Shown here piece after piece: positions 303 through 59,884 of a stretch of DNA of 64,000 nucleotides. Under the pieces are notes generated by a model, which did not search any database, had not been told where the DNA came from, and was given only the letters and a program-made list of their open reading frames with translations. The DNA comes from Natronomonas salinimetallica (GTDB lineage Archaea > Halobacteriota > Halobacteria > Halobacteriales > Haloarculaceae). The stretch lies in NCBI RefSeq assembly GCF_013839515.1, contig NZ_JACDNQ010000006.1, forward strand, positions 1 through 64,000, written 5' to 3'. Each line of letters begins with the position of its first letter. Within the stretch, counting starts at the first letter, position 1. The translations under genes were made by a program, and so were the position numbers.

Positions 303-1283
<981 letters not shown>

Positions 1284-42551: not shown

Positions 42552-44153
42552 TTACACACGGCGGGTGACCTCCTTTTCGAGTCGCCGCTCGGCACGTTCG
42601 AGCACCGCCCGGCGCGATCCGATCGTATCCCGGTGGGCATCGAGCGCCTCGCGTGCCCGCGCACGGTCGGCGTCGACGGCCGCGGGGGCGGGCCCGCCGG
42701 TCGAGTCCCGCGATACGACGCTCGAGGTCGGATCGAGCGCCGCCTCGACGGCCGCCCGGTCGACGTGCGTCTCCAGTGGCTCGTCGAGGACCTCCCTCGC
42801 GGCCGATTCGAGCGCCGCGTACGTCGCCGCGACGTTATCCCCGTCGGTCCGTTCGGCCGCGAACGCGACCAGCTCGTGGGCGGTCCGGAACGGAAGCCCC
42901 TCCATCGCGAGCAGATCCGCCACCCCGGTCGCCGTCGAGAAGCCCTCCGATGCGGCCGCCCCGAGCGCCGGCTCGTCCCACTCGGCCGTCGCGACCGCGC
43001 CCGCGGCGACCTCGGTTGCCGCTTCGACCGCGTCGATCGCCTCGAAGGCGTGCGGGTGGGCGCGCTGAAGATCGCGGTTGTACGCCCGCGGGAGTCCTTT
43101 CAGGATCGACAACAGCGCGTTCAGCCCGGCGGCCGCATCGCCGGCCGACCCCCGAACGAGCTCCATCGTGTCGGGGTTCTTTTTCTGTGGCATGATCGAG
43201 GAGGTCGATGCGTAAGCGTCGTCCAGCTCGACGTATCCACGGTTCGAGAAGACGACGAGGTCCTCCGCGAGCCCCGACAGCGTCGTCGACAGCGCAGCGA
43301 CGGCGGCGGTCGTCTCGACGAGGAAGTCGCGAGCGGAGACGGCGTCCATCGAGTTCCCGACGACCCCCTCGAAGCCGAGCAGCTCGGCGGTCCGCTCCCG
43401 ATCGATGTCGAACGGCGTGCCCGCGAACGCCGCCGCGCCGAGCGGCGAGCGGTTGATCCGCCCGTAGGCGTCGAGCAGCCGTTCGGTATCACGGGCGAGC
43501 GCCGACTCGTAGGAGGCCAGGTAGTGGCCCACGGTCGTCGGCTGCGCCGGCTGGAGATGCGTAAAGCCCGGCATGACGGTCTCGGTGTGTGCCTCGGCGG
43601 CGTCGGCGAGGGCCTCTCGGGCCCCGACCGTCGCCGTCGCGGCGTCGAGGACGTCCTCGCGAAGCCGATACCGGATGCAGGTCGCGACCTCGTCGTTTCT
43701 GGACCGGGCGGTGTGCATCCGCCCGCCGCGCTCGCCGACACAGTCGATGACGGCCGTTTCGATGGCCGCGTGGACGTCCTCGCCGTCCGGGAGAGCCGCG
43801 TGTCCGGCGGCCTCGATTTCGGCGAGCGCCCCGAGGACCGCCGCCGCGTCCTCGCGGGCGATGATGTCCTGCTCGTCGAGCATCACGACGTGGGCGCGGT
43901 CGACCGCGACGTCGGCCGCGAAGATCCGCTCGTCGGCCGCGAGACTCGACATGAATCCGCGGGCGGGACCGCCGCTGAAGCGCTCTCGGCGGACGACGTC
44001 GCCGGGGCCGTCGCTCCCGGATTCGGTGTGTCCGTCGGCGTCATTGCTCCCGGATTCGGTGTGTCCGTCGGCGTCATTGCTCCCGGATTCGGTGTGTCCG
44101 TCGGCGTCATTGCTCCCGGACTCCGTGGGTCCGTCGGCGTCCTCGTCGGTCAT
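42552..44153 (-). CDS. argH: Argininosuccinate lyase with N-terminal repeat extension
   Basis: The 533-residue fumarase/aspartase-superfamily enzyme makes arginine and fumarate. The signature loop SSIMPQKKNPD, GRMHTARSRNDEV and TVMPGFTHLQPAQPT are present. The first ~45 residues are an extra segment made of SGSNDADGHTE repeats (33-bp units, about 44020-44130) ahead of the normal start DVVRRERFSGGPARGFM. Family members are usually ~460-490 residues, so the repeat tract accounts for the excess. It lies 4 bp after argG. Confidence 0.95.
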   Translation of the reverse strand: MTDEDADGPTESGSNDADGHTESGSNDADGHTESGSNDADGHTESGSDGPGDVVRRERFSGGPARGFMSSLAADERIFAADVAVDRAHVVMLDEQDIIAREDAAAVLGALAEIEAAGHAALPDGEDVHAAIETAVIDCVGERGGRMHTARSRNDEVATCIRYRLREDVLDAATATVGAREALADAAEAHTETVMPGFTHLQPAQPTTVGHYLASYESALARDTERLLDAYGRINRSPLGAAAFAGTPFDIDRERTAELLGFEGVVGNSMDAVSARDFLVETTAAVAALSTTLSGLAEDLVVFSNRGYVELDDAYASTSSIMPQKKNPDTMELVRGSAGDAAAGLNALLSILKGLPRAYNRDLQRAHPHAFEAIDAVEAATEVAAGAVATAEWDEPALGAAASEGFSTATGVADLLAMEGLPFRTAHELVAFAAERTDGDNVAATYAALESAAREVLDEPLETHVDRAAVEAALDPTSSVVSRDSTGGPAPAAVDADRARAREALDAHRDTIGSRRAVLERAERRLEKEVTRRV

Positions 44154-46589: not shown

Positions 46590-46606
46590 CTTAAACCGTC
46601 TTAAAC
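46590..46606. promoter_or_regulatory. TTAAaCCGtcTTAAA motif upstream of secreted protein gene
   Basis: CTTAAACCGTCTTAAAC lies 65-81 bp before the ATG at 46671 and ~27 bp ahead of the TATA-like CGATTTATCC (46633-46642). Similar words precede two other secreted-protein genes (57452-57496 and 59859-59884), suggesting a shared regulator site. Confidence 0.45.
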
Positions 46607-46670
46607 TCGGGGGAACTCCGTACGACTGTGTTCCCGATTTATCCGTTTTACACCCGTCGTACCGACTGTA

Positions 46671-47303
46671 ATGTCAATCTCAAAAACCGTCGTGGCGGTG
46701 CTGGCAGTATTGCTCGTCGCTGGAAGCGGTGCCGCAGTAACGGGCCTGGCACAGACGGACACCAGCGCGTCGACAGCTCCCGTGTCCGACCTCGATATGG
46801 ACGCGACGCTCGACAACGGGACCGTTACGGTAACGATGACGGACGGCGGTGCGCCCGTAGAGAACGCCTCGATCACCGTCGAAGGTGAAAAAGAGAGAAC
46901 CGTCACCACCAGCGCGGATGGAACCGCGACGGTCAATCGCTCGGCGCTCAGCGAGGACGGCGAGTCGCTCGAGGAACTCGAAGTCGAGTACGAATCCGAC
47001 CACGCGGAAGGCAAACTGGAGTACGTCGTCGAGGACAACTCGCTCACCCTCGCCGAAGAGAAATACGAGTACGACGTAGACGAACGGGGAGACGAGCGCG
47101 AAGAGGGCGATGAGGAAGACGAGCGCGAAGAGGGCGATGAAGACGACGAGCGCGAAGAGGGCGATGAGGACGACGAGCGCGAAGAGGGCGATGAAGACGA
47201 CGAGCGCGAAGAGGGCGATGAGGAAGACGAGCGCGAAGAGGGCGATGAAGACGACGAGCGCGAAGAGGGCGATGAAGACGACGAGCGTGAAGAGGACGCC
47301 TGA
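46671..47303 (+). CDS. Secreted protein with acidic DEREEGDED repeats
   Basis: This 210-residue protein has a signal peptide (MSISKTVVAVLAVLLVAGSGA to about residue 28), a beta-sandwich of carboxypeptidase-regulatory-like type (TLDNGTVTVTMTDGGAPVENASITVEGE, residues ~45-110), then eight copies of a 9-residue unit, DEREEGDED/E (27 bp each, about 47086-47300). The tail is almost wholly Asp, Glu and Arg. No lipobox or membrane anchor is seen. It may bind metal ions or act as a cell-surface polyelectrolyte; this is inference. It is convergent with the DUF7345-like gene. Confidence 0.75.
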   Translation: MSISKTVVAVLAVLLVAGSGAAVTGLAQTDTSASTAPVSDLDMDATLDNGTVTVTMTDGGAPVENASITVEGEKERTVTTSADGTATVNRSALSEDGESLEELEVEYESDHAEGKLEYVVEDNSLTLAEEKYEYDVDERGDEREEGDEEDEREEGDEDDEREEGDEDDEREEGDEDDEREEGDEEDEREEGDEDDEREEGDEDDEREEDA

Positions 47304-47363
47304 TAACGCATACACGCACCTATCCTTCCACCTATCGCCGGCAGTACGAAGACACCGGCCGGA

Positions 47364-48074
47364 CTACCGCTTTCGGCCGACCAACAGCGAGACGAGAATC
47401 AGCGCCGAGATACCCAGCGCAAGGGGAGCGCCGCCGTGTGTGACAGGCCTCTCCGGCGAGTGCTCGATCGGGGCCATCTCGCCGCCCGAGGCGGGGGCCG
47501 CGACGACCTCGAAGCCCTCGCCGAACGTCGTCATCCCCGGCCAGGCAACGGTGTCACCGTCGTCACGCTCCGGTTCCGGCGAGGCGCTCTCGATCTCGTA
47601 GCCCTCCGGCGCGACGACCACCAACTCGCGATCGAGCGTCTCGAACAGCGAGAACGGTTCGGCGAGGACCACGCGGTCGTCGTCGACGGCTGCGAGGTTC
47701 TCCCATCGGAACTCGTAGACGACGATCCCCGTCTCGCCGACGGCGGCCGTTTCGACGGTGACCTCACCGACGCGGAGCTCCCGATCGATACCCTCGTTCG
47801 CCGTCCCGGAGACGAACCGCATCTCCTCGCCGAAGCGCTCGGCGACGGCCGCTCTGAGGTCCGCGTCCGCCTGGACTTCCTCGAATATCTCCCGGTCTTC
47901 GGGGGCTGTGAGATCGAACTCCTCGGTGAACGCGGCGTCGGCGTCGCCGTCGGCGTCGAGTTCGACGACGAACTGGCCGTCCGCGGCCGACTGGGCGGCG
48001 GCAGTGCCGGCGGCCCCGGAGAGTGCGAGGGCCGCGATACAGAGGGCGGCGAGGAGTCGTACGACGGTATGCAT
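47364..48074 (-). CDS. Secreted DUF7345-like protein with C-terminal membrane anchor
   Basis: The 236-residue protein has a signal peptide (MHTVVRLLAALCIAALALSGA), a beta-rich domain (QFVVELDADGDADAAFTEEFDL to GIVVYEFRWENLAAVDDDRVVLAEPF and SASPEPERDDGDTVAWPG), then a C-terminal helix, APLALGISALILVSLLVG, with RKR after it. The same domain is found in the gene at 57639, where it is fused to a winged helix; this one lacks the DNA-binding part. The ATG at 48072-48074 starts the signal peptide. It faces outward, anchored at the C-terminus. Confidence 0.75.
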   Translation of the reverse strand: MHTVVRLLAALCIAALALSGAAGTAAAQSAADGQFVVELDADGDADAAFTEEFDLTAPEDREIFEEVQADADLRAAVAERFGEEMRFVSGTANEGIDRELRVGEVTVETAAVGETGIVVYEFRWENLAAVDDDRVVLAEPFSLFETLDRELVVVAPEGYEIESASPEPERDDGDTVAWPGMTTFGEGFEVVAAPASGGEMAPIEHSPERPVTHGGAPLALGISALILVSLLVGRKR

Positions 48075-48211
48075 GCCCGGAGGGTCACCGCCGGGGGCCA
48101 AAAACGGCCCGGTTGCCAGTCGGGACGGGATACCCCAACCGGCCCGTTCGCCGGGGCAGAAACGCCGTCCGGACTCAAGTTTTATACCTTCGTCACGGCC
48201 ACGTGTCGGTA

Positions 48212-49045
48212 ATGGGACTACAGTGTTCGATACTCGGCCACGCCTTCGAGGACGCCGGGGTAGAGCGTGAACGCGAAGAACAGGGCAGCGAGGTGATCAC
48301 GACCGAGCGCGAGATCGAGCGGTGTCGGCGCTGTGGCACGGAGCGCGTCGTCTCCGAGAGCACGGAGGTCGCCGCCGTCGTCGATGCGTCCGACGTCGGG
48401 CTCGAGGGTGACCACGACGGCGTCGGCTCGGACGCCCCGAGTACGACGGACAGCGGAGCGGGCGGCGGAATCGCCAGCGCAGTCGAGCGCAGCGGCGTCG
48501 CTGACACGGATTCGGACCCCGAAGAGAGCGGAGCCGGCGTCGGTACGGAACCGGCGGCATCGTCGCAGACGCCGGACGTTCCGGAACCGGCGGCATCGTC
48601 GCAGACGCCGGACGTTCCGGAACAGGGGGACGGTTCGATCGGCTCCGAGGAACCGCCGGATCCAGCCGAGGAGGACGCCGAAATCCTCACCGACGAGACG
48701 GACGAGCAGGGGCGGAACCCCGGTCAGTGGCCGGAGGAATCGGAACGGTCGACGGCGGGCGATCCGGTTCCGGGCGCAGGCGACGACTCGGTTCCGGGCG
48801 CAGGCGACGACTCGGTTCCGGGCGCAGGTGACGACTCGGTTCCGGGCGCAGGTGACGAACTGACGGACCGTCCCGAGGACGAACCCCCCGGCTCCGTCGA
48901 GGAGTCCCTGTCGGGGATCACGGTCCCGGAGGGCGAGATCGTGTGTCCGGAGTGCCCCTTCCGGATCGACGCCAACTCCGGGTACCGGGCGGGCGATCCC
49001 TGCCCGGAGTGTAACGCGTGGCTCGAAGCCGAACGAAACCAGTAA
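48212..49045 (+). CDS. Zinc-ribbon protein with repeat-rich linker
   Basis: The 277-residue protein begins MGLQCSILGHAFEDAGVEREREEQG and has a first Cys cluster (CRRCGTE, with C5 and H10) and a C-terminal zinc ribbon, CPECPFRIDANSGYRAGDPCPEC. The 170 residues between are low complexity: two 12-residue EPAASSQTPDVP units and four DSVPGAGD units (24 bp, about 48768-48866). Both ends resemble a haloarchaeal family (DUF7093, from memory). It has no signal peptide. The start is fixed by the TATA-like TTTTATACC ~27 bp upstream. Confidence 0.72.
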   Translation: MGLQCSILGHAFEDAGVEREREEQGSEVITTEREIERCRRCGTERVVSESTEVAAVVDASDVGLEGDHDGVGSDAPSTTDSGAGGGIASAVERSGVADTDSDPEESGAGVGTEPAASSQTPDVPEPAASSQTPDVPEQGDGSIGSEEPPDPAEEDAEILTDETDEQGRNPGQWPEESERSTAGDPVPGAGDDSVPGAGDDSVPGAGDDSVPGAGDELTDRPEDEPPGSVEESLSGITVPEGEIVCPECPFRIDANSGYRAGDPCPECNAWLEAERNQ

Positions 49046-49071
49046 ACCGTCGGATTCCGATACCCATCGGT

Positions 49072-49464
49072 ATGGAAGAGTACAAGATGAGACGCGGGGA
49101 GTATCTCGAGGAGCGCGTCCCCGATCTGGAAGCCACCATCGAGGAGTATTTCGGCCCGATAACCGACACCGAGGGGTTCAAAGACAGCGACCTCTACGTC
49201 GTGGACGACCCGGACAACCCGGTCTTTACGCGGATCGTCGCGGGGGCAGTATCGTACTCCGGCAAGAAGGACAGACTCGCCGTCCACTTCGAGGAGCGCG
49301 ACCTCGAATCGCTGATGGAGTCCGGCGACGTCGACGCCGCCGGCGACGCGAACAACGCGAAAAACGACTTCCTGCTCGAGTGTACCGGCCGCGATGCGAA
49401 ATCGCGCCGCGAGTCGATGAAACGCGCCGTCGAGGACGATGCCGAGACGCCCGACGACGTCTGA
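49072..49464 (+). CDS. DUF5611 family protein
   Basis: The 130-residue protein begins MEEYKMRRGEYLEERVPDLE and contains FGPITDTEGFKDSDLYVVDDPDNPVFTRIV and AKNDFLLECTGRDAKSRRESMKRAVEDD, matching DUF5611, a conserved archaeal family of unknown function. Soluble, no known active site. It sits 26 bp after the zinc-ribbon gene in the same direction and may share its mRNA. Confidence 0.85.
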   Translation: MEEYKMRRGEYLEERVPDLEATIEEYFGPITDTEGFKDSDLYVVDDPDNPVFTRIVAGAVSYSGKKDRLAVHFEERDLESLMESGDVDAAGDANNAKNDFLLECTGRDAKSRRESMKRAVEDDAETPDDV

Positions 49465-49563
49465 TACGGTCCCTTTTTTGATCCCGACAACGACGCTCGA
49501 CCACCGAGGCGACACGGCCGACGTGACCACGCCGTTTTTCCGGTCTCGGCCCCTCCTGACCGT

Positions 49564-50001
49564 ATGAGCCTTGGATTCGATCCGGCGGAGATCGACCCGG
49601 ACGACATCGGCGAAAAACAGGCTACCCTGGAGATGGACCACGAATCGGCCATCGAACACGTCCGTGAAACGGCCGAGGCGGCCGGCTTCGGCGTCCCCGT
49701 CGAGTTCTCACCCTCGGAGATGCTCAACGAGAAGGTCGACGCGAATCGTGACCCCTACTACGTGTTGGGCGCGTGCAACCCTTCGGTAGCCAACCGGGCG
49801 CTCGAAGAGACCCTCAAGCAGGGGGCGTTGTTTCCCTGCAACTTCGTGATCCGGGAGGAGGAGCCGGGCCGCCAGCGCGTGTATCACGTCTCGATCATGA
49901 GGATCGCCCGGCTCGTCGGGATCGCGCCCGACAACGACGCCTGGGCGTCGATCGTCGAGGACACCGGCGAGTTGACCGAGCAGTTCTTCGAGGACCTGTG
50001 A
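49564..50001 (+). CDS. DUF302 domain protein
   Basis: The 145-residue protein matches DUF302: HESAIEHVRETAEAAGFGVPVEFSPSEML, YYVLGACNPSVANRALEETLKQGALFPCNFVIRE and IMRIARLVGIAPDN. The family is widespread, small and soluble, with an alpha/beta sandwich sometimes linked to stress or redox; the role is unknown. ATG 49564 with an A/T-poor upstream region. Confidence 0.88.
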   Translation: MSLGFDPAEIDPDDIGEKQATLEMDHESAIEHVRETAEAAGFGVPVEFSPSEMLNEKVDANRDPYYVLGACNPSVANRALEETLKQGALFPCNFVIREEEPGRQRVYHVSIMRIARLVGIAPDNDAWASIVEDTGELTEQFFEDL

Positions 50002-50104
50002 CCGCCCCGACGGCCGGGCCGGCGACCGAACCGGCGGCAGCCACGCTGTCCGTCCTGACGGAACACACGACTTTTGGGTCTTGGCGGCCTACGAGCGGTA
50101 ACGA

Positions 50105-51133
50105 ATGATCTCGAAGGGCTGTGAACAGTGTGCCGCCGGCGGCAAGATGGTGCTTTTCGTCTACGGCTACTGCGACCAGCGCGACTGTTTTTACTGTCCG
50201 CTCGGCGAGAACCGAAAGAACGTCACCCAGGTCTACGCCAACGAACGCCCCGTCGAGAGCGACGAGGACGTCATAACGGAGGCCAAGCGGATGGATGCGC
50301 TCGGAACATCGATCACCGGTGGCGAGCCCCAGGAGGCGATGGACCGGACGTGTCGGTACCTGAACCTCCTCAAAGAGGAGTTCGGCGAGGATCACCACAC
50401 GCATCTATACACCGGCATCACGGGCGGTCGCGAGAACATGCGCCGGCTCTCGGAGGCCGGCCTCGACGAGATCCGGTTTCACCCGCCGCTCGAGCTGTGG
50501 GGTGACCTACACGGCACCGAGTGGGAGGATATCCTTTATATCGCCCGCGAGGAGGGCCTCACGCCCGCCTTCGAGATCCCCGGCATCCGCGCGGAACCCG
50601 AGTTCTTGGAGTTTCTCGATGCGGGGGCCGCCGACTTCTGTAACATCAACGAGTTCGAGATGTCCGACGGCAACTACCGCCGGATGCAGGAGAAGGGCTT
50701 CGAGCTGAAAGAAGACCACATGAGCGCCGTCGAGGGCTCTCACGACATCCTGGCGGAGATGGGCGACCACGAAAAGGTGTATTTCTGTACGAGCGTTTTC
50801 AAGGACGCCGCCCAGCACCGATCACGGCTGAAACGGATGGCCCGGACCGTCCGCCGGGAGTTCGACGAGATCACCGACGACGGAACGCTCGTCTACGGGA
50901 AGACCTGGGAGACGGAAGCCAGACTGGCGGATCTCGGCGTGGCCGAGGAGTTCTACTCGGTCAAATCCGACCACATCGAGTTGGCGTGGTGGCTCCTGGA
51001 GGAGATGGTCGAGGCGGGCGACGTCGAAACGGGCGAGATCGTCGAGCAGTATCCGACCTACGACGGGACGGTCGTCGAACGGACGCCGTTATCGGGCGGG
51101 ACGGCCGACGGACGCCCGGCGGCCGGCGACTGA
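50105..51133 (+). CDS. Radical SAM protein with CX4CX2C motif
   Basis: The 342-residue protein has VYGYCDQRDCFYCPLGENRKN (cysteines spaced CX4CX2C) at ~21-29 instead of the usual CX3CX2C that holds the 4Fe-4S cluster. Two more cysteines precede it (CEQC at 6-9). The rest is a partial TIM barrel: DALGTSITGGEPQEAM (SAM-contacting GGEP), THLYTGITGG, IRFHPPLELWG, FEIPGIRAEPEF and FCNINEFEMSDGNY. Haloarchaeal members of this group are uncharacterised. Reaction unknown; the motif spacing should be confirmed in homologues. Confidence 0.82.
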   Translation: MISKGCEQCAAGGKMVLFVYGYCDQRDCFYCPLGENRKNVTQVYANERPVESDEDVITEAKRMDALGTSITGGEPQEAMDRTCRYLNLLKEEFGEDHHTHLYTGITGGRENMRRLSEAGLDEIRFHPPLELWGDLHGTEWEDILYIAREEGLTPAFEIPGIRAEPEFLEFLDAGAADFCNINEFEMSDGNYRRMQEKGFELKEDHMSAVEGSHDILAEMGDHEKVYFCTSVFKDAAQHRSRLKRMARTVRREFDEITDDGTLVYGKTWETEARLADLGVAEEFYSVKSDHIELAWWLLEEMVEAGDVETGEIVEQYPTYDGTVVERTPLSGGTADGRPAAGD

Positions 51134-51436
51134 TACGGACCGGCGTCGTCCGGACGTGGTCACCGCCTGCACCGTTCCGGTGGTGACCGCTTCCTCCCTG
51201 CACCGTTCCGGTGGTGACTGCTCTCCCCCTGCACCGTTCGCTTTCTCGGCACACCGATCCGTATGGTACCGTCGTCGATACCGACCTCTGGATGTTCGCG
51301 TCGGTGACGCAAGGTCGTCACGAGCGTATCGCCGACAACGCGAGGTCGTCACGAGCGTATCGCCGACAGTACGACCGAAACGCCGCCGAGGGTCCCGCGA
51401 AAACCTATAAGAGCCCACTCGACGTGTGTCCCAGGT
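51134..51436. other. Intergenic with two short tandem arrays
   Basis: CCTGCACCGTTCCGGTGGTGAC occurs at 51166-51187 and 51197-51218, with a partial third copy at 51229-51241 (period ~31 bp). A separate 31-bp unit containing AGGTCGTCACGAGCGTATCG is repeated at 51308-51338 and 51339-51369. TATA-like AACCTATAAG lies at about 51401, ~30 bp before the next gene. Confidence 0.8.
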
Positions 51437-52168
51437 ATGGAGACGTCCGAACGGCCGACCTTCGAGACCGAGGCGGGCGAGGAGATCTACCGCTACGTCG
51501 AGCGGCACGGGACGGCGGCCCGTCACCGGGTCCGAGAGGTGACGTCGCTGCCGCCCGAGGAGTTCCAGGACGCCCTCGGGGAGCTGAAGGATCGCGGCTA
51601 CCTCGAGGACGACGGCGGGACGCTACAGATCGCCCTCGATGTCGGCTCGGTCGAGGCGTACTCGACCGACGACGTCGAATACGTCATCCGCCCGGCGAGA
51701 CAGTCGGACTTCGAGGGGCTCATCGACACGATCCGGGACGTGACCGCGGAGGACACGTACATCGTCGCCGAATCGATCGCCGAACAGCTCCTCTATGAGG
51801 ACGCCGTCAACCGCCACAACACCGCCGAATCGCGCGTCTTCTTCGTCGCGACGGTCGAAGGGCAGGTCATCGGGTGGTCACACCTCGACCTACCGCAACT
51901 GGACAAACTCCAGAGCACCGCACAACTGACCGTCGGCGTCCGCGGGGACTACCAACAGCACGGCATCGGCGGCCGTCTCGTCGACCGTGCCCTGGAGTGG
52001 GCCGAGGCCAACGGCTACCGGAAGGTGTACAACAGCGTCCCGATCACGAACGACGAGGCGCTCGCCTTCCTGAAGAGCCGGGGGTGGGAGACCGAGGGTG
52101 TCCGGAAGGATCACTACACCATCGACGACAGTTACGTCGACGAGGTCATGCTCGCCTACACGTTCTGA
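51437..52168 (+). CDS. GNAT acetyltransferase with N-terminal winged helix
   Basis: In this 243-residue protein, residues ~10-65 form a winged-helix-like unit (GEEIYRYVERHGTAARHRVREV, LGELKDRGYLEDDGG). Residues ~80-240 form a GNAT fold, with the acetyl-CoA loop in LTVGVRGDYQQHGIGGRLVDRAL (Q-x-x-G-I-G-x-R) and a late YNSVPITNDEALAFLKSRGWETEG. The substrate is unknown; GNATs of this kind acetylate proteins or small amines. The fusion to a DNA-binding-like domain may place it on a nucleic acid or serve only in folding. Confidence 0.85.
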   Translation: METSERPTFETEAGEEIYRYVERHGTAARHRVREVTSLPPEEFQDALGELKDRGYLEDDGGTLQIALDVGSVEAYSTDDVEYVIRPARQSDFEGLIDTIRDVTAEDTYIVAESIAEQLLYEDAVNRHNTAESRVFFVATVEGQVIGWSHLDLPQLDKLQSTAQLTVGVRGDYQQHGIGGRLVDRALEWAEANGYRKVYNSVPITNDEALAFLKSRGWETEGVRKDHYTIDDSYVDEVMLAYTF

Positions 52169-52225
52169 ACGCGACCTCCGGGGACGAAACGACAGACCGA
52201 CGTAGCCCCCGTCCGGAGCCGGGGT

Positions 52226-53332
52226 ATGGACGACTACGAACGGCCGCTTTTTTTCCACCTGATGGAGTACGCGGCCGAGGCCGACGGCGACGTCGTCGAT
52301 ATGGTGTCGGGCAACCCCGACTGGGAGCCACCGGAGGCGATCCGAACCGGGCTGAAGCGGTACGCCGACAGCGGCGTCGACGCCTTCCAGTACCCGCCCA
52401 GCGACGGGCTCTCCGACCTTCGGGCGGCGGTCGCAGACCGACACGGCGTCGACGTCGACCGCGTCGTCGTCACGAACGGGGCGGGCGAGGCGAACTACCT
52501 GGCGATGGCGACGGCGCTCGAGGCGGGTCCCGCCGACGGGGTCCTCATGGCCGACCCGGTGTACCCCTACTACCACAAACGGGCCCGGATGCTCGGCGGG
52601 ACACCTCGCTTCGTTCCGAGCGAACCGGACGGGACGCTCGATCCGGCCGCCGTCCGCCGGGCGGCGAGCGAGGACACCGCCGCGATCGTCGTCAACTCAC
52701 CGAACAACCCGACCGGGGGCGTCTACGGCGGCGAGACGAAACGCGACATCGCCGCCGTCGCCGACGCGAACGACGCCCTGTTGATCTCCGATGAGGTCTA
52801 CGAACGGTTCGTCTACGACGAGGGGGCCTTCGAGACCGCCCTCGCCGCCGATTCCGACCGTGTCGTCGTCACGAACGCCTTCTCGAAGTCCATGGCGATC
52901 ACGGGATTTCGGGTCGGCTACGGGATCTTTCCCCCGCGGCTGGCCGAGGCGGTCCGGACTCGTCACATGCTCGTCAACGTCGCCGGATCGCGGCCCGCCC
53001 AGCGGGCGGTGCTCGACGCCCTCGAGCAAACCCCCGAGTCGTACTACGAGCGCAACCGGAAACTGCTCGAAGAGCGGATCGAGACGTTCTGTGCGGCTCT
53101 CGAGGCGGCCGGGGCGGCGTACACTCGCCCGCAGGGCGGATTTTACGTGATGGCTCGCTTCGAGGGCTACCCGGGGACGCTCGAAAACACCGAACGGCTG
53201 ATCGACGAGGCCGGCGTCGCCGGAATGCCGGGGGACGCCTTCGGGGAGTCGCGGGCGGAGTGGCTCCGTTTCGCCGTGGTGACCCCGCGGGCGGAGGAGG
53301 CCGCAGAGCGCCTGGCGGCGTACTTCGGGTGA
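52226..53332 (+). CDS. PLP-dependent class I/II aminotransferase
   Basis: This 368-residue fold-type I enzyme has MVSGNPDWEPPEAIRTGLKRY at the N-terminus, VVTNGAGEANYLAMATAL, VNSPNNPTGGVYGG (Asn and Tyr region), LISDEVYERFVYD, and NAFSKSMAITGFRVGYGIF with the PLP lysine in FSKS. It is an aspartate/aromatic-type aminotransferase; the substrate cannot be told. It lies 57 bp after the GNAT in the same direction and 58 bp before the prenyl synthase. Confidence 0.92.
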   Translation: MDDYERPLFFHLMEYAAEADGDVVDMVSGNPDWEPPEAIRTGLKRYADSGVDAFQYPPSDGLSDLRAAVADRHGVDVDRVVVTNGAGEANYLAMATALEAGPADGVLMADPVYPYYHKRARMLGGTPRFVPSEPDGTLDPAAVRRAASEDTAAIVVNSPNNPTGGVYGGETKRDIAAVADANDALLISDEVYERFVYDEGAFETALAADSDRVVVTNAFSKSMAITGFRVGYGIFPPRLAEAVRTRHMLVNVAGSRPAQRAVLDALEQTPESYYERNRKLLEERIETFCAALEAAGAAYTRPQGGFYVMARFEGYPGTLENTERLIDEAGVAGMPGDAFGESRAEWLRFAVVTPRAEEAAERLAAYFG

Positions 53333-53390
53333 CCACCCTACGGTTCGACGTATCCGTCACGTACTTCCGAACACCGTTCCTACGGTGGTT

Positions 53391-54266
53391 ATGGAGTATC
53401 TCGAGCGCCGTCGGGCGCTTGTCGAGTCGCGGCTCTCGGCCGTGCTCGACGCGGCCGAACCGGAGGCGATGACGGAGCGGGTAGAGCACGTCTCGCTGTC
53501 CGGCGGCAAGCGAGTCCGACCGATGGTGACGCTTCTCGCCTTCGAGGCGGCGGGCGGGGAGTTGGTCGGCGAGGACGGCCGCGGATCGGCGGCCTCGGCG
53601 GAAGCCGTCGACTTCGCCGTCGGGATCGAGTTGGTCCACAACGCCTCCCTGGTCGTCGACGACATCATCGACGAGTCGGACCTCCGCCGCGGCGTCGAAA
53701 GCGCCTGGGCGGCGTTCGGATACGGCCCCGCGATGGCCACGAGCGACGGACTGCTCGGGGAGGCGTTCTCGCTGTTCGGCAGCGACGACCGCGCGATGCG
53801 GACCGTCGCCGAGGCGATGGTCGAACTCGGTGAGGGCGAGGCGATCGAACTCGTTGCGGCCCCGACGACCGAGACGGAGTACATGGAGTTGGCCCGCCGG
53901 AAGACCGGCGCGCTGTTCCGGGCGGCCGCCGAACTCGGGGCCATCGCCGCGAACGCCGACACCTACACGACCGAATCGTTCGGCGGCTACGCCGAGCGCG
54001 TCGGGGTCGCCTTCCAGATCCGCGACGACGTCCTCGACGCGACGGCCGAAGCCGAGGAACTGGGAAAGCCGGCCGGCCGCGACGAGGCCATGGAGCGGCC
54101 CTCGCTGGTCCGGATCACCGAACTCTCGCCCGAGGAGATAAACGGTCGCGCCCGCGAGGAGTCCGACGCCGCGCTGTCGGCGCTGTCGGCGGCCGACCCC
54201 GGCGATTCGCCCGCCGTCGGTTACCTCCAGGACCTCGCGGAGTTCGTCGTCGTCCGGGAGCGCTGA
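53391..54266 (+). CDS. Polyprenyl diphosphate synthase
   Basis: This 291-residue E-prenyl synthase has the first Asp-rich motif in LVVDDIIDESDLRRG (DDIID, ~85-89) and the second in FQIRDDVLDATAEAEELGKPAGRD (DDVLD, ~207-211). It uses IPP and allylic diphosphates to build a geranyl/farnesyl/geranylgeranyl chain for archaeal lipids or quinones. The chain length is not shown by sequence alone. The ATG at 53391 is preferred over a GTG two codons earlier. Confidence 0.9.
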   Translation: MEYLERRRALVESRLSAVLDAAEPEAMTERVEHVSLSGGKRVRPMVTLLAFEAAGGELVGEDGRGSAASAEAVDFAVGIELVHNASLVVDDIIDESDLRRGVESAWAAFGYGPAMATSDGLLGEAFSLFGSDDRAMRTVAEAMVELGEGEAIELVAAPTTETEYMELARRKTGALFRAAAELGAIAANADTYTTESFGGYAERVGVAFQIRDDVLDATAEAEELGKPAGRDEAMERPSLVRITELSPEEINGRAREESDAALSALSAADPGDSPAVGYLQDLAEFVVVRER

Positions 54267-54361
54267 CCGTACACGTCCCGGGACGGCGAGCGGGAAACGA
54301 CCGTACGTCCCGATCGGAGTGAACGAAAACGCGTTTAGCCCCGCGGGACCCACAGCCGCGT

Positions 54362-55195
54362 ATGATAGTCCCGGGATCCGCCTCACAGGAGGTCGCAGCG
54401 GCGCTTGCGAGCGAACTCGGCGAGTCGCTCGCGGCCGTCGAGTACGACTGGTTTGCCGACGGCGAGACGCTCGTCCGCGTTCCGGAGACCGACGACCGCG
54501 CGGTCGTCGTCGCCTCGACGATCTCCGACAACGCCCACGTCGAGTTGCTCCAGTTGCAGGACGCCGCCGGCCAGCGCGCCGACGAGGTGATCACCGTCCT
54601 GCCGTACATGGGCTACGGCAGACAGGACGAGTCCTTCGCCCCCGGCCAGCCCGTCTCGGCGCGCGCGATGGCGCGGGCGATCTCGACGGGGACCGACCGC
54701 GTGGTGACGGTCAATCCACACGAGGGGTCGATCACCGACTTCTTCGACGTCCCGTGTGTGGCCGTCGACGCCGCCGGCCTGCTGGCCGACCCGCTTCCCG
54801 AACTCTCCGACCCGCTGTTTCTGTCCCCGGACGCCGGTGCGATCGGCCTCGCCGAGACCGTCCGCGACGCCCACGGCGGCGGGGACACGGACTACTTCGA
54901 GAAGGTCCGTCACTCCGACACCGACGTCGACGTACGGCCGAGAGACGCGTCGACCACCGGCCGAGACGTGGTATTAGTCGACGACATCGTCTCGACCGGA
55001 TCGACGATGAGCACCGCGATCGACCAGCTTTCGGATCCGGACCGCGTCTTCGTTACCTGCGTCCATCCGATGCTCGCCGCCAACGCCCGGACCAAACTGG
55101 CGACCGCCGGCGTCGAGGCGGTGTACGGCACCGACACGATCGAGCGGGCGGTCTCGACGGTCAGCGTGGCCCCGAGGATCGCGGACACACTGTAA
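54362..55195 (+). CDS. prs: Ribose-phosphate diphosphokinase (PRPP synthetase)
   Basis: The 277-residue enzyme makes PRPP from ribose 5-phosphate and ATP, feeding nucleotide, histidine and tryptophan synthesis. It has MIVPGSASQEVAAALASELG, the LPYMGYGRQDESFAPGQPVSARAMA catalytic flexible-loop region, VTVNPHEGSITDFF and the PRPP-binding loop VVLVDDIVSTGSTM. Its shorter length relative to bacterial Prs (~310) is normal for archaea. A 95-bp gap follows the prenyl synthase. Confidence 0.94.
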   Translation: MIVPGSASQEVAAALASELGESLAAVEYDWFADGETLVRVPETDDRAVVVASTISDNAHVELLQLQDAAGQRADEVITVLPYMGYGRQDESFAPGQPVSARAMARAISTGTDRVVTVNPHEGSITDFFDVPCVAVDAAGLLADPLPELSDPLFLSPDAGAIGLAETVRDAHGGGDTDYFEKVRHSDTDVDVRPRDASTTGRDVVLVDDIVSTGSTMSTAIDQLSDPDRVFVTCVHPMLAANARTKLATAGVEAVYGTDTIERAVSTVSVAPRIADTL

Positions 55196-55196
55196 C

Positions 55197-55219
55197 GGCA
55201 TCGGGATTTGAACCACACC
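55197..55219 (-). other. tRNA 3'-end-like fragment
   Basis: On the minus strand, GGTTCAAATCCCGATGCCG includes a perfect T-loop (TTCAAAT) with a GG/CC part of the T stem, but no matching upstream T-stem strand or acceptor stem. It is not a gene. It could be a scar of an attachment site, or chance. It lies two bases after the prs stop, before a DNA methylase gene. Confidence 0.35.
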
Positions 55220-55325
55220 AGACCGAGCGAAGCGGGGCGAACCGTCGCACTGGAACACCCGACACCGTCCGCGTCCCGCGTCGCCGACGAAACGTTAAGG
55301 GAGCCGTGCCGGGAACCGGGAATCG

Positions 55326-56420
55326 ATGGAGACCACACACCGCGTCGTCACCGGGGACGCGCGCTCGCTCTCGGAGATCGACGACTGCTCCGTCGAGCTA
55401 GTCGTCACGTCCCCGCCGTACCCGATGGTCGAGATGTGGGACGACCTCTTTTCGGGGCTCGATCCGGAGATCGGGGAGCGTCTCGCGGACGGCGACGGGC
55501 AGGCCGCGTTCGCCCGAATGCACGAGGAACTCGAGGCGGTCTGGAGAGAGATCAAGCGGGTGCTCGTCGACGGCGGTATCGCCTGTGTCAACGTCGGTGA
55601 TGCGACGCGGACTGTGGATGGAAGCTTTCGGGTCTTTCAGAACCACTCGCGGGTCATCGACGCCTTCGAGGGGCTCGGATTCGAGCCACTCCCGGAGATC
55701 CTCTGGCGGAAGCCGGTCAACTCCGGGACCAAGTTCATGGGGTCGGGAATGCTCCCGCCGAACGCCTACGCCACGCTCGAACACGAGTACGTTCTCGTGT
55801 TCCGGAACGGGGAGGAAAGCCGGAGCTTCGAGCCGAGATCGGAGCGTCGATACAGTTCGGCGTACTTCTGGGAGGAGCGGAACCGGTGGTTTTCGGACGT
55901 CTGGACCGACATCAACGGCGAAGCCCAAGCGCTCGGCGACGGCGACCTGCGGGAGCGCTCGGCGGCGTATCCGTTCGAGATCCCACACCGTCTGATCAAC
56001 ATGTACTCCGTCTACGGGGATACGGTCCTCGACCCGTTTTGGGGAACGGGCACGACGTCGCTCGCGGCGATGGTCGCCGCTCGGAACTCCGTCGGGTACG
56101 AACTGGAGTCGGAGTTTGCACGGCTGTTCGGGGAAGCGGTCGGGGACGTCCCCGAGTACTCCCGCGACGTCGTCGAACGGCGCTTGGAGGGACACGAGGC
56201 GTTTGTCGAAGGGCGTCTCGCGGACGGAAAGGAGTTCAAGTACCAAGCCGATCACTACGGTTTTCCCGTCGTTACGAAACAGGAGACGTCGATCCGATTC
56301 TACGTCGCGTCGGCGGTCCGCGAGACGGACGGAAAATACATCCTCACACACGAACCGATCGAGGGAACGAATCCCTGGACCGAAGAGCGTGCGGGCGACG
56401 TTCCGTCGTCCGATCCTTGA
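55326..56420 (+). CDS. DNA methyltransferase, beta class (probable CTAG m4C type)
   Basis: This 364-residue amino-methyltransferase has the catalytic TSPPYPM (residues ~27-33; SPPY is typical of N4-cytosine enzymes) before the SAM-binding DPFWGTGTTSLAA (~234-246), an order typical of the beta class. It has no restriction enzyme neighbour. The phrases VELVVTSPPYPMVEMWDDLF, GSGMLPPNAYATLEHEYVL and YFWEERNRWFSDVW resemble Zim, the CTAG-specific orphan methylase conserved across haloarchaea. Specificity is inferred from that resemblance, not shown. Confidence 0.85.
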   Translation: METTHRVVTGDARSLSEIDDCSVELVVTSPPYPMVEMWDDLFSGLDPEIGERLADGDGQAAFARMHEELEAVWREIKRVLVDGGIACVNVGDATRTVDGSFRVFQNHSRVIDAFEGLGFEPLPEILWRKPVNSGTKFMGSGMLPPNAYATLEHEYVLVFRNGEESRSFEPRSERRYSSAYFWEERNRWFSDVWTDINGEAQALGDGDLRERSAAYPFEIPHRLINMYSVYGDTVLDPFWGTGTTSLAAMVAARNSVGYELESEFARLFGEAVGDVPEYSRDVVERRLEGHEAFVEGRLADGKEFKYQADHYGFPVVTKQETSIRFYVASAVRETDGKYILTHEPIEGTNPWTEERAGDVPSSDP

Positions 56421-56494
56421 GGCGGATCGGTGCTGCCGTGTCCCGGCGAGCACACGCGACGGTGCCCGAGCGGCGGTCGGAGCGCCGCTACGCC

Positions 56495-56737
56495 CTATAC
56501 GGTGACCTTCCAGGTCGTCCCCGAGGAGTAGCCCCACTTTTCGACATCGACGTCGAACTCCCCCTCACAGATCGCGGTCATGTTCGAGCCGACCTCCTTG
56601 GCCGACAGCCCGAGTTCCTCGCCGATGAGCCGGGATTTGAAGTAGGTCTTCATCCGGCCCCGCTCGCGGAGGTACGCGAGGATGCGTTGTTGTTTGTCCG
56701 TGAGTTCCGAAGTCGGCCCGACGGCGGTCGCGCTCAT
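56495..56737 (-). CDS. Small winged-helix protein
   Basis: The 80-residue protein has STELTDKQ-like SELTDKQQRILAYLRERGRM, TYFKSRLIGEELGLSAKEVGSNM (recognition helix region) and EKWGYSSGTTWKVTV. It is a single winged-helix fold of a haloarchaeal family (DUF7123, from memory), possibly a small DNA-binding regulator. The ATG at 56735-56737 (MSATAVGPTSELTD) is chosen; TATA-like CACCTTTTGAGG (minus) lies ~25 bp upstream. Confidence 0.78.
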   Translation of the reverse strand: MSATAVGPTSELTDKQQRILAYLRERGRMKTYFKSRLIGEELGLSAKEVGSNMTAICEGEFDVDVEKWGYSSGTTWKVTV

Positions 56738-56923
56738 ATCTATCCGATGCGTCCACGCCTCAAAAGGTGGTTTGGTACGGTCGGTTAAGACGCCGCACTC
56801 AGGTGGTTTTGGGTAATCAGTCCGTGCGGTAAGGCGGGGAAAACAGCGACGGTTGGTACGGGAGAGAAACCGGCGTTGCCCGCCGCCTGGCACATGTCAC
56901 CCGGCCATCCCATGACCATTCGT

Positions 56924-57397
56924 CTAGCTGTCCGAACCGTCGTCCACATCGTCGGACTCGCTGTCGTCCACATCGTCGGACTCGCTGTCGTCCACATCGT
57001 CGGACTCGCTGTCGTCCACATCGTCGGACTCATCCTCGCCAAGGAGGTCGTCAAGTGAACCGCCGAGGTCGTCGATGGATCCATTCAGGAACGAGTCGAT
57101 CCGGTCGTGGATCTCACCCACGTGGTCGGGGACCTGTTCCGGCAGACCGTCGCTCGGGCCGACACCGTCAGCGGTGCCGGCGCGGTCGTCGGCAGCGGTG
57201 CCGGCGCGGTCGTCAGCAGCGGTGCCGGCGCGGTCGTCGGCAGCGGTACCGGCTACATTCGGTGCGTTCCCGGGCGCATCCACGTCCGGGGCGTTGTCGC
57301 TCGCCTGGTCGGCAGGGCTGGCGGCACCGAGCGCCGCCACGCCGCCGACCAGGAGTGTCGATACGACTGCGATCGTGACGAGTCGTTTTGCTCTCAT
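56924..57397 (-). CDS. Secreted repeat protein, acidic tail
   Basis: The 157-residue protein has a signal peptide (MRAKRLVTIAVVSTLLVGGVAAL), then three to four AGTAADDR units (24 bp, about 57160-57250), a short region DHVGEIHDRIDSFLNGSIDDLGGSLDDLLG, and four ESDDVDDS units (24 bp, about 56934-57029) ending GSDS. No lipobox or membrane anchor. Its layout parallels the secreted protein at 46671. TATA-like CCGTTAAGTAGC is 25-36 bp before the ATG, and TTTAGCCGGTTAAA-like sites lie upstream of that. Confidence 0.7.
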   Translation of the reverse strand: MRAKRLVTIAVVSTLLVGGVAALGAASPADQASDNAPDVDAPGNAPNVAGTAADDRAGTAADDRAGTAADDRAGTADGVGPSDGLPEQVPDHVGEIHDRIDSFLNGSIDDLGGSLDDLLGEDESDDVDDSESDDVDDSESDDVDDSESDDVDDGSDS

Positions 57398-57451
57398 TGC
57401 GTCTGATCGATGCCCCGGCAGCTACTTAACGGGGGAACGTCTTGATGCCGA

Positions 57452-57496
57452 ATTTAGCCGGTTAAAGCCCTCTCAGTCCGAATTAATCCGAATAAC
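57452..57496. promoter_or_regulatory. Two TTAA-CCG-TTAA-like motifs between divergent genes
   Basis: TTTAGCCGGTTAAAG (57453-57467) and GAATTAATCCGAATAAC (57480-57496) stand between the secreted-protein gene (start 57397, minus) and the membrane regulator (start 57639, plus). The first is 20-25 bp upstream of the TATA-like box of the minus gene. A related word is upstream of 46671 and of 59795. Confidence 0.5.
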
Positions 57497-57607
57497 GTCC
57501 GTTTGTACGTCCGAAAGGACTCCGGTAGTGCCGCCTCGAAGCGATCGCGAGAACGATCCCGGCGGGCCGCGGTCCCGGTCCCTCGAACGGCAGTCGTCGG
57601 CAACAAC

Positions 57608-57619
57608 CCATTTATATAG
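57608..57619 (+). promoter_or_regulatory. TATA-like box of membrane winged-helix gene
   Basis: CCATTTATATAG stands 20-31 bp before the GTG at 57639, the best TATA-like word in the region and consistent with a leaderless start. Confidence 0.6.
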
Positions 57620-57638
57620 CCCGCCCGTCCCGACGGCT

Positions 57639-58730
57639 GTGAACCGGAGACGTCTCCTCGCGCTGTCGGCGTGTGTCGCCGTCGTCGCTCTCGGGACCGC
57701 AGTTTCTCTCGGATCCGTGGCGGGCGCGGCGCCGGGATCCCCGCTCGCCCAGCAGGACATCGATACTGACGACGTGCTGTTGTCCATTACCGTCGAGGAC
57801 GATGGTGACGCGCGCTGGACGATCGAGTATCGGACACGGCTCGAAACCGACGCGGACGACGCGGCCTTCGAGGAACTCCGACGCGCCATCGAGGCCGACC
57901 CCGACCCGTACGCCGATCGGTTTCGAGAGCGGATGGACGGAACCGCGGCGAGCGCCGAGAACGCGACCGGCCGGGAGATGACGATCACCGAGATGTCCGT
58001 TTCAGCGGACAAGCGCGAGCTCCCCCAGGAGTACGGCGTGTTGCGGTATGAGTTCCACTGGTCGAACTTCGCCGAGACCGAGGACGATCGGCTGCTCGTC
58101 GGTGACGCGATCGATGGCCTGTTTCTCGACGAGGAGACTGCCCTCCTGATATCGTGGACGGAGGGGCGCGAACTCCGCTCCGCATCCCCGTCCCCCTCCG
58201 AGACGCGGTCCGGATCCGTGGTCTACGAGGGGCCGAGGGAGTTCGCGGGCGGCGAACCCCGGATCGAGCTCGCTCCATCGGGCACGACGGCCCCCACCGG
58301 AACCGGCCCGTCGTCCCCGGTTTCGCTGCCGGTCGCGGTCGCGCTCGTCGGGGTGCTCCTGGCGATCACCGCTGGTGCGATAGTCGCCTATCGGAAGCGA
58401 TCCGACACGTCCACGCGGGTACCTACTGGTCCGAGCAGCGACGACACTGCGGCGGGCGAAGACGCGACGGCGGCGGATACGGCCTCCGGCGGGCCGACGG
58501 ATCCCGAACTCCTGAGCAACGAAGAGCGGGTGTTGGAACTCATCGAACGCGAGGGGGGCCGGATGAAACAGCAGGCGATCGCCGAACAGCTCGAATGGAC
58601 CGACGCCAAGACCAGCCAAGTCACGAAGAAACTCCGCGAGGAGGGCTCTCTGGAGGGGTTCCGCTTGGGCCGCGAGAACGTCCTCTCGTTGCCCGAGGAC
58701 GATTCGGGTCCGGACGACGATTCACAGTAG
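57639..58730 (+). CDS. Membrane-anchored winged-helix regulator with extracellular DUF7345-like domain
   Basis: The 363-residue protein has a signal-like N-terminus (VNRRRLLALSACVAVVAL), then an extracellular beta domain (LLSITVEDDGDARWTIEYRTRLE to GVLRYEFHWSNFAETEDDRLLV and SASPSPSETRSGSV), one transmembrane helix (SLPVAVALVGVLLAITAGAIVAY, ~220-242), basic RKRSD, a linker, and a C-terminal winged helix (NEERVLELIEREGGRMKQQAIAEQL, TSQVTKKLREEGSLEGFRLGRENVL, ~295-355). This is the layout of a one-component membrane regulator: outside sensor, inside DNA binding. GTG 57639 is chosen from the TATA-like box. Confidence 0.82.
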   Translation: MNRRRLLALSACVAVVALGTAVSLGSVAGAAPGSPLAQQDIDTDDVLLSITVEDDGDARWTIEYRTRLETDADDAAFEELRRAIEADPDPYADRFRERMDGTAASAENATGREMTITEMSVSADKRELPQEYGVLRYEFHWSNFAETEDDRLLVGDAIDGLFLDEETALLISWTEGRELRSASPSPSETRSGSVVYEGPREFAGGEPRIELAPSGTTAPTGTGPSSPVSLPVAVALVGVLLAITAGAIVAYRKRSDTSTRVPTGPSSDDTAAGEDATAADTASGGPTDPELLSNEERVLELIEREGGRMKQQAIAEQLEWTDAKTSQVTKKLREEGSLEGFRLGRENVLSLPEDDSGPDDDSQ

Positions 58731-58794
58731 GGCGGGCTCCGGCCGCGTGCGATCAGCGTCCTTGTCCCCGGCTCACCGTCCCCTATCACGGCCC

Positions 58795-59069
58795 CTATCG
58801 ACGGATCGCCAAGAGCGCCGCTCCGAGGAGCGCGACGGCTGCGGCAGCGACCGCGAATCCGGCGGCGTCATTCTTTCGGGGGTGTCGCCGGTCTCAGGAA
58901 CAGTTCATATCAGATTCCTGTTCTTTATTCTGCACCAAGTGGTGCGTTCGGTGAACTCGCCGAAGTAGTGGCCTCCCTCGTATGTGTCGTCCTCGTAGAC
59001 CGTGATCTCGATTGTCTTGCCGCACCCATGCAGTCTCGTTCGATTGTGCGTTTCTCTTTCGGTACCGTA
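58795..59069 (-). pseudogene. Decayed 3' part of a PGF-CTERM protein gene
   Basis: After the stop of the gene at 59070 the same frame stays open for 54 more codons (59069-58908), including a second GKTIEIT followed by VYEDDTYEGGHYFGEFTERT, to a TGA at 58905-58907. In another frame, 58893-58795 encodes NDAAGFAVAAAAVALLGAALLAIRR and a stop, a PGF-CTERM-like sorting tail with nothing usable in front of it. These look like remains of the longer C-terminus once carried by the upstream gene. Confidence 0.5.
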
Positions 59070-59795
59070 TCAGTCGTTGCGTGTGATCTCGATTGTCTTG
59101 CCGTCCTCGGTGGTGTCACGGTCACCTGGGCCGCGCTCGTCGCCGGGTCCGGGTCCCGTATCAGGGGCGCGCTCGTCGCCGGGTCCGGGTCCCGTATCGG
59201 GACCGCGGTCGCCCCTGGGGCCACGTTCGACCATGCCGCTGCGGTTGCCGGCGATGCTCCGGGCGATCTCGGAGACCTCACCGCCACGCAGTTGGTCGGC
59301 ATCACGCATTAACGTCCGGATCGCCGTCGTGTTCACGTTGTTTCGTTCGAGCGTCTCCCCAGGGATGTCGGCGGCGGTCGCGTTGCTTTGATTCAGTTGC
59401 TGTCTGGCCGTTTCGACCTCCGTCGCCAGCCGCGCCGTCCGCGCGCGGTACTGCCCGTCCGTTATCTCGCCGCGTTCTCGCTGCGCTTGTAGCTCGGCTT
59501 TCCGCTCTTCTAACGCCGCCAGACGGGTCTCCGTCTCGTTGAGTTTCTCCGCGATGTGTCTCGCCTTTGTGGCGTTGTCGTCGGCACGTTCGAGCCCGAT
59601 CCTGAACGCGTTTCGCTCGATTTCGCCGTCGATCTCGGCGCTCTGGACGCCCACGACGCCGGAGAGACGTTCGCCGGGTTTCACGTCCGCACCGTCCGGT
59701 TCGTCTTCGGTCTCCTGTGCGAGGACGCCAGCCACCGGGACGACGAGCGTCCCGACGACGACGAACAGCGCTACGAGCAGGCTGGTCCGTTTCAT
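59070..59795 (-). CDS. Secreted coiled-coil protein (DUF7096-like)
   Basis: The 241-residue protein has a signal peptide (MKRTSLLVALFVVVGTLVVPVAGVLAQ), then GERLSGVVGVQSAEIDGEIE, a long charged coiled coil (ERADDNATKARHIAEKLNETETRLAALEERKAELQAQRERGEITDGQYRARTARL, ~70-130), and a tail with two GPGPGDERxPDT units (30 bp), ending GKTIEITRND. It resembles a haloarchaeal secreted family (DUF7096, from memory). ATG 59795 is used; a GTG lies one codon upstream. TATA-like CTATTTATATAGG is 25-37 bp before it. The original C-terminus appears lost. Confidence 0.72.
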   Translation of the reverse strand: MKRTSLLVALFVVVGTLVVPVAGVLAQETEDEPDGADVKPGERLSGVVGVQSAEIDGEIERNAFRIGLERADDNATKARHIAEKLNETETRLAALEERKAELQAQRERGEITDGQYRARTARLATEVETARQQLNQSNATAADIPGETLERNNVNTTAIRTLMRDADQLRGGEVSEIARSIAGNRSGMVERGPRGDRGPDTGPGPGDERAPDTGPGPGDERGPGDRDTTEDGKTIEITRND

Positions 59796-59858
59796 CACGG
59801 TTCCTGTTTGGGCGGACAGACCTATATAAATAGACGGCCGTACCCCTGAATCACGTAC

Positions 59859-59884
59859 GATTAGCCAGGATTAAGCCGAATTAA
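59859..59884. promoter_or_regulatory. TTAA-CCG-TTAA-like motif upstream of secreted coiled-coil gene
   Basis: GATTAGCC (59859-59866) and GATTAAGCCGAATTAAC (59868-59884) lie 64-89 bp before the ATG at 59795, about 27 bp upstream of its TATA-like box. The core TTAAGCCGAATTAA matches the sites at 46590 and 57453-57496. Confidence 0.5.

Follow-up and report, generated by a model that had tools for sequence, protein, structure and literature searches.

As three genes for exported proteins in a G+C-rich haloarchaeal genome carry similar A/T-rich sequences upstream, we asked what element these sequences form and which protein might read it. The window, i.e. the whole stretch of DNA analyzed, comprises 64,000 nt (contig NZ_JACDNQ010000006.1, Natronomonas salinimetallica) from a 2.78-Mb, Natronomonas-like genome of the family Haloarculaceae. 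The preliminary description had flagged four sequences, at 46590, 57453, 57480 and 59868, as a TTAA-N-CCG-NN-TTAA-like motif shared by three secreted-protein genes. All four are present at these positions, the products of the 46671, 57397 and 59795 genes (targets C, B and A) are all exported, and arrays lie upstream of the genes. The dyad symmetry ascribed to the motif was not found: the element is a tandem, head-to-tail direct repeat in helical phase, composed of at least two copies of a ~10-bp unit with the consensus TTAATCCGGC close upstream of the three genes (Table 1), and the TTAA-N-CCG-NN-TTAA motif corresponds to two TTAATCCGGC-type units. Since sites 57453 and 57480 lie inside one run of five contiguous 10-mers, they represent a single array. 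The spacing to the TATA boxes, formerly given as about 20-30 bp, also has to be revised: the array of the 46671 gene starts 47 bp from TATA and that of the 59795 gene 54 bp, and at the 57397 gene no more than a weak TATA-like element is present. A sigma-70 promoter scan is inapplicable to archaea.

Table 1. Positions of the repeat arrays, promoter elements and genes in the window
Feature	Position	Strand	Description
Array C	46591-46630	+	Units TTAAACCGTC TTAAACTCGG GGGAACTCCG (TACGACTGTG), 5′ of the 46671 gene
TATA-like element of the 46671 gene	46638	+	TTTATCC
Target C	46671-47303	+	Exported: signal peptide, Ig/carboxypeptidase-regulatory-like domain, acidic 9-aa repeat tail; PF13620 weak, below cut-off
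DUF7345-only membrane protein	47364-48065	-	Sensor-domain homologue without wHTH; PF24036, E 1e-19
Target B	56924-57397	-	Small acidic exported protein: signal peptide, GPPxDLPxQVPDFVSxIH-like core
Weak TATA-like element of target B	57421-57430	-	GTTAAGTAGC; position comparable in relatives' B promoters
Array B	57447-57496	-	50 bp, five contiguous 10-mers GTTATTCGGA TTAATTCGGA CTGAGAGGGC TTTAACCGGC TAAATTCGGC
TATA box of the regulator gene	57611-57620	+	atttatatag
Proposed regulator	57639-58730	+	Signal anchor, DUF7345 ectodomain (46-213), TM helix (231-254), linker, DUF7343 winged helix (291-352)
Target A	59070-59795	-	Exported coiled-coil protein
TATA box of target A	59823-59832	-	TATTTATATA on the minus strand
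Array A	59844-59884	-	Units TTAATTCGGC TTAATCCTGGC TAATCGTACG TGATTCAGGG

Tandem repeats also occur within coding sequences of the window. In-frame tandem repeats of 27 bp (47091-47295) and 24 bp (56939-57031) encode the acidic tails of targets C and B, respectively, and a 33-bp tandem repeat (44013-44141) encodes the repetitive N-terminal HTESGSNDADG extension of an argininosuccinate lyase-like protein (gene 42552-44153, minus strand). The gene for the DUF7345-only protein adjoins target C and is often found beside target A in relatives, which suggests that its product is a partner or a decoy of the sensor.

Array B lies in the divergent promoter region that the preliminary description assigned to the 57639 gene. 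The region is indeed common to 57397 and 57639, but the array is placed for the former, because more than 110 bp separate it from the TATA box that serves the regulator gene. It is rather improbable that this site pair serves mainly the autoregulation of the regulator: the region is shared by the divergent genes and conserved in Natronomonas, but apart from the distance to the regulator TATA box, the arrays stay with B or A, not with the regulator, where the regulator and B are not adjacent.

With no more than two mismatches allowed, the window contains 11 matches to TTAANCCGNNTTAA versus 1.84 expected, a count reached in none of 100 shuffles, and exact copies of TTAANCCGNNTTAA are confined to positions 46591 and 59871 of the full 2.78-Mb genome. 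At one mismatch, the genome contains 7 matches versus 6 for the reversed-pattern control; pattern counts alone are therefore not decisive, and we turned to conservation. A sequence-only model (R1) was built from the arrays of 25 relatives, taken from A promoters with the window excluded. Searched against the full genome with E values up to 10, this relatives-only model returned two matches, 59858-59884 (E 0.001) and 57468-57493 (E 1.6), so that the genome-wide ranks 1 and 2 both fall to window sites, which flank the 57639 gene. R1 scores the 46591 site weakly, and array C was therefore examined by conservation instead. As R1 was trained on A promoters, its A matches in the training genomes are circular, while those at B, C and D promoters and in the own genome are not.

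In the orthologues of target A, the aligned upstream regions show TTAATCCGGC head to tail at 10-bp steps, for example, in gene orientation, TTAATCCGGC TTAATCCGGA CTGATCGGCG TCGATCCGGC or TTAATCCGGC TTAATCGGGC CCAATCCGGG. With a leave-one-out matrix, 26 of 27 A-promoter sites outscored all 200 shuffles of their own promoter, and the repeat array precedes C in 7/7 Natronomonas genomes with this gene (our genome and six others; shuffle p 0.01 or less), counts that, like those of B promoters given below, are not independent because the promoters share descent. The window copy of array C is apparently one unit shorter than in relatives, and one genome with a divergent regulator orthologue (G231) retains no more than a degenerate C array. 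Across 57 genomes of the family, R1 detected sites not only at A promoters but also 5′ of family B and, in two genera, of a lipoprotein, D; the exact-pattern search additionally recovered the Natronomonas aquatica orthologue of C. In other families of the order, A or B homologues again follow many of the top-scoring sites. The other top matches in relatives again belong to exported proteins or lipoproteins. A few matches, some of them weaker R1 ones, fall within coding sequence and were treated as chance, among them those in three genomes.

The array of lipoprotein D is found only in orthologues of the two genera, where it is weak in some, and was looked for but not found in most of the more distant D homologues; D is therefore no core member of the regulon. 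The window itself encodes a distant D homologue (534-1247, minus strand; E 1.4e-18), for which no array was detected. The window-type matrix finds little in Natrialbaceae and Haloferax, where the repeats have diverged in sequence. The A promoters at five loci of Natrinema/Natronorubrum and three of Haloferax contain such drifted 10-bp direct repeats (TTGAACGGCG; TTGAATGGAG).

The periodicity of the arrays was also evident when no matrix was used. In promoters from across Halobacteria, self-similarity of 47 non-redundant A promoters peaked sharply at lags of 10 (z 19.7) and 20 (z 10.2), and that of 28 B promoters at lag 10 (z 14.1), whereas control upstream regions had a period like that of codons, with no appreciable signal at lag 10 (z 1.6). 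The array mostly started 34, 44 or 54 bp from TATA, in one case 64 bp, and deviations from these values were small (Rayleigh R 0.85, n=28); both the periodicity and the phase statistics are inflated by shared descent. These results leave hardly any credit to the view that the sites are chance A/T-rich patches near promoters in G+C-rich DNA. Haloarchaeal promoters are A/T-richer than coding DNA, and the one-mismatch count equals that of the reversed control, but the confinement of the exact sites to the window, the top ranks in the whole genome, the conservation in orthologous promoters and the 10-bp periodicity all stand against chance, which is already contradicted by conservation across genera. 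A shared regulon of exported proteins is thus strongly supported, and this part of the surface-protein regulon proposed in the preliminary description stands, the element being kept upstream of the orthologues of all three genes.

Spacing that changes by whole turns between lineages is hard to explain without a protein that reads one face of the helix, and the sign of its action may be considered from the same geometry. The same regulator and arrays could mediate repression, if occupancy next to the BRE/TATA blocked TBP/TFB until an envelope signal released the regulator. The array ends within ~14 bp of the TATA box in some genomes (offset 34), as a blocker might; most arrays, however, lie wholly upstream at whole-turn spacing, a geometry like that of an activator, and the TATA spacing would matter less for a blocker. 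Repression is possible but the less probable sign. The quantized TATA spacing also offers a natural system to study the geometry between an activator and TBP/TFB in archaea.

The 57639 protein scores above the Pfam gathering cut-offs for DUF7345 (PF24036; 116.2 bits, cut-off 27.5) and DUF7343 (PF24034; 93.2 bits, cut-off 27.6). Its AlphaFold model is confident for the ectodomain and the winged helix and moderately so for the TM helix, and the N-terminal signal sequence predicts an extracellular ectodomain and a cytoplasmic winged helix. The wHTH is C-terminal and matches IclR/MarR-like domains. Its recognition helix, AKTSQV, is invariant in the aligned regulator orthologues and different in paralogues. 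Foldseek searches with the full model returned many short matches to winged helices of the MarR/ArsR type, as expected of a wHTH; FMO proteins gave long but low matches (TM 0.18) and were rejected as structural relatives. CsmR of Haloferax volcanii was likewise dismissed as a known homologue, the accessible part of its description mentioning no membrane sensor of this type. At four loci of paralogues, no clear array was seen between the regulator and its neighbor, and the genes overlap or nearly touch in some.

The assignment of the regulon to this protein is drawn from gene neighborhood and co-occurrence. Of 80 loci from across Halobacteria that were chosen by the regulator only, about 76 have an A homologue next to it. 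In Natrialbaceae, families A and B and a D-like lipoprotein stand together beside the regulator, and they are scattered in Haloarculaceae. The B promoter array is present in 22/23 genomes with a regulator orthologue (including one counted by its exact site) versus 2/7 without (Fisher p 8e-4), presence and absence of the regulator being split by an E-value cut. The two exceptions are G017, a 71%-complete assembly, and G052, a congener of carriers. Where the regulator orthologue is absent, B and some D promoters have CGTTYA repeats at 9-10-bp steps instead of the TTAATCCGGC array (six loci); a DUF7343 paralogue whose recognition helix differs may use these as its operator.

Control of the regulon by the 57639 membrane protein would best explain these associations. 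Alternatively, the arrays might be genuine envelope-regulon operators to which some other, soluble factor binds, such as another winged-helix protein or an alternative TFB, with the membrane protein as a merely co-regulated neighbor. Other wHTH genes are located near some copies, e.g. that of a DUF7123 protein at 56495-56893, and a wHTH gene stands beside the regulator in some Natronomonas loci. In the loci inspected, however, A and the regulator are constant neighbors and the alternative genes are not, and loss of the B array tracks the absence of the 57639 regulator clade, so that a soluble factor appears unlikely.

Taken together, the conserved, helically phased direct repeat is almost certainly a common operator of an envelope regulon, and the 57639 protein is a strong candidate for its regulator. 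We estimate a probability of about 0.74 for the full reading, in which operator arrays define an envelope regulon whose repeats are bound by the 57639 protein as a membrane one-component regulator, most likely an activating one. The operators consist of head-to-tail ~10-bp units, of the TTAATCCGGC type in this clade, one helical turn apart and just upstream of the BRE/TATA, and would identify the genes of a small regulon, which encodes exported envelope proteins of families A, B and C, joined by lipoprotein D in some genera. The extracellular DUF7345 domain may sense the state of the envelope, with possible modulation by the exported products or the DUF7345-only protein, and the single TM helix would pass the signal inward. 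Cytoplasmic DUF7343 winged helices would then occupy one repeat after another along the same side of the DNA, and their assembly would act on TBP/TFB, activation being the most likely effect. In this scheme the arrays, their conservation, their period and phase to TATA and the gene linkage are observed; we infer DUF7343 binding, the membrane sidedness, the signal and the sign of regulation.

More tentatively, Halobacteria may possess a class of DUF7345-TM-DUF7343 membrane regulators, with several paralogues per genome, each recognizing a separate alphabet of ~10-bp direct repeats (TTAATCCGGC; in Natrialbaceae, TTGAACGGCG; where the 57639 clade is lacking, CGTTYA) through head-to-tail winged-helix assembly at the membrane. 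If this is true, the factor bound to promoters of exported proteins would itself monitor the cell surface. The scheme predicts how haloarchaea couple envelope state to transcription, and control by the 57639 protein, if true, would make an uncharacterized outside-to-inside signaling system testable. Since homologues occur in the tractable genera Haloferax, Haloarcula and Halorubrum, the prediction is directly testable.

The 57639 protein belongs to both DUF7343 and DUF7345, Pfam families without assigned function but widespread in Halobacteria, for which an operator, a regulon and a mechanism are now proposed. The literature searched, in which subscription journals are mostly not covered, contained no mention of either family, which is not proof of novelty; matches to TTAATCCGG were unrelated, and no haloarchaeal operator of the 10-bp direct-repeat kind was found there. 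EarA of euryarchaea is a soluble wHTH protein that binds TACATA boxes overlapping the BRE. Compared by general description only, it resembles the present candidate, which would likewise control surface-structure genes through a wHTH close to the basal promoter. Regulators of the ToxR/CadC type have an N-terminal OmpR-type wHTH inside and a C-terminal sensor outside. They are likewise one-protein transmembrane sensors with a wHTH, but work with the bacterial transcription machinery and in the opposite domain order. The 57639 protein is therefore not ToxR-like, as its wHTH is C-terminal and IclR/MarR-like. The likeness extends to operator geometry, and to geometry only: the tox-box, TNAAA-N5-TNAAA, is a direct repeat with the same 10-bp step (PMC8517210). 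The nearest archaeal analogues by role are ArnR and ArnR1 of Sulfolobus acidocaldarius, membrane-bound one-component HTH regulators of surface-structure genes (PMC6396743). ArnR has an N-terminal HTH, a HAMP-like part and two C-terminal TM helices, and its boxes are inverted repeats, TCGAC-N5-GTCGA (PMC6396743). In contrast, the 57639 protein combines an N-terminal ectodomain, one TM helix and a C-terminal wHTH with direct-repeat arrays; domain order, TM number and box type thus argue against its being an ArnR, and the two are alike in their role as membrane one-component regulators, known for ArnR and predicted here, of surface genes.
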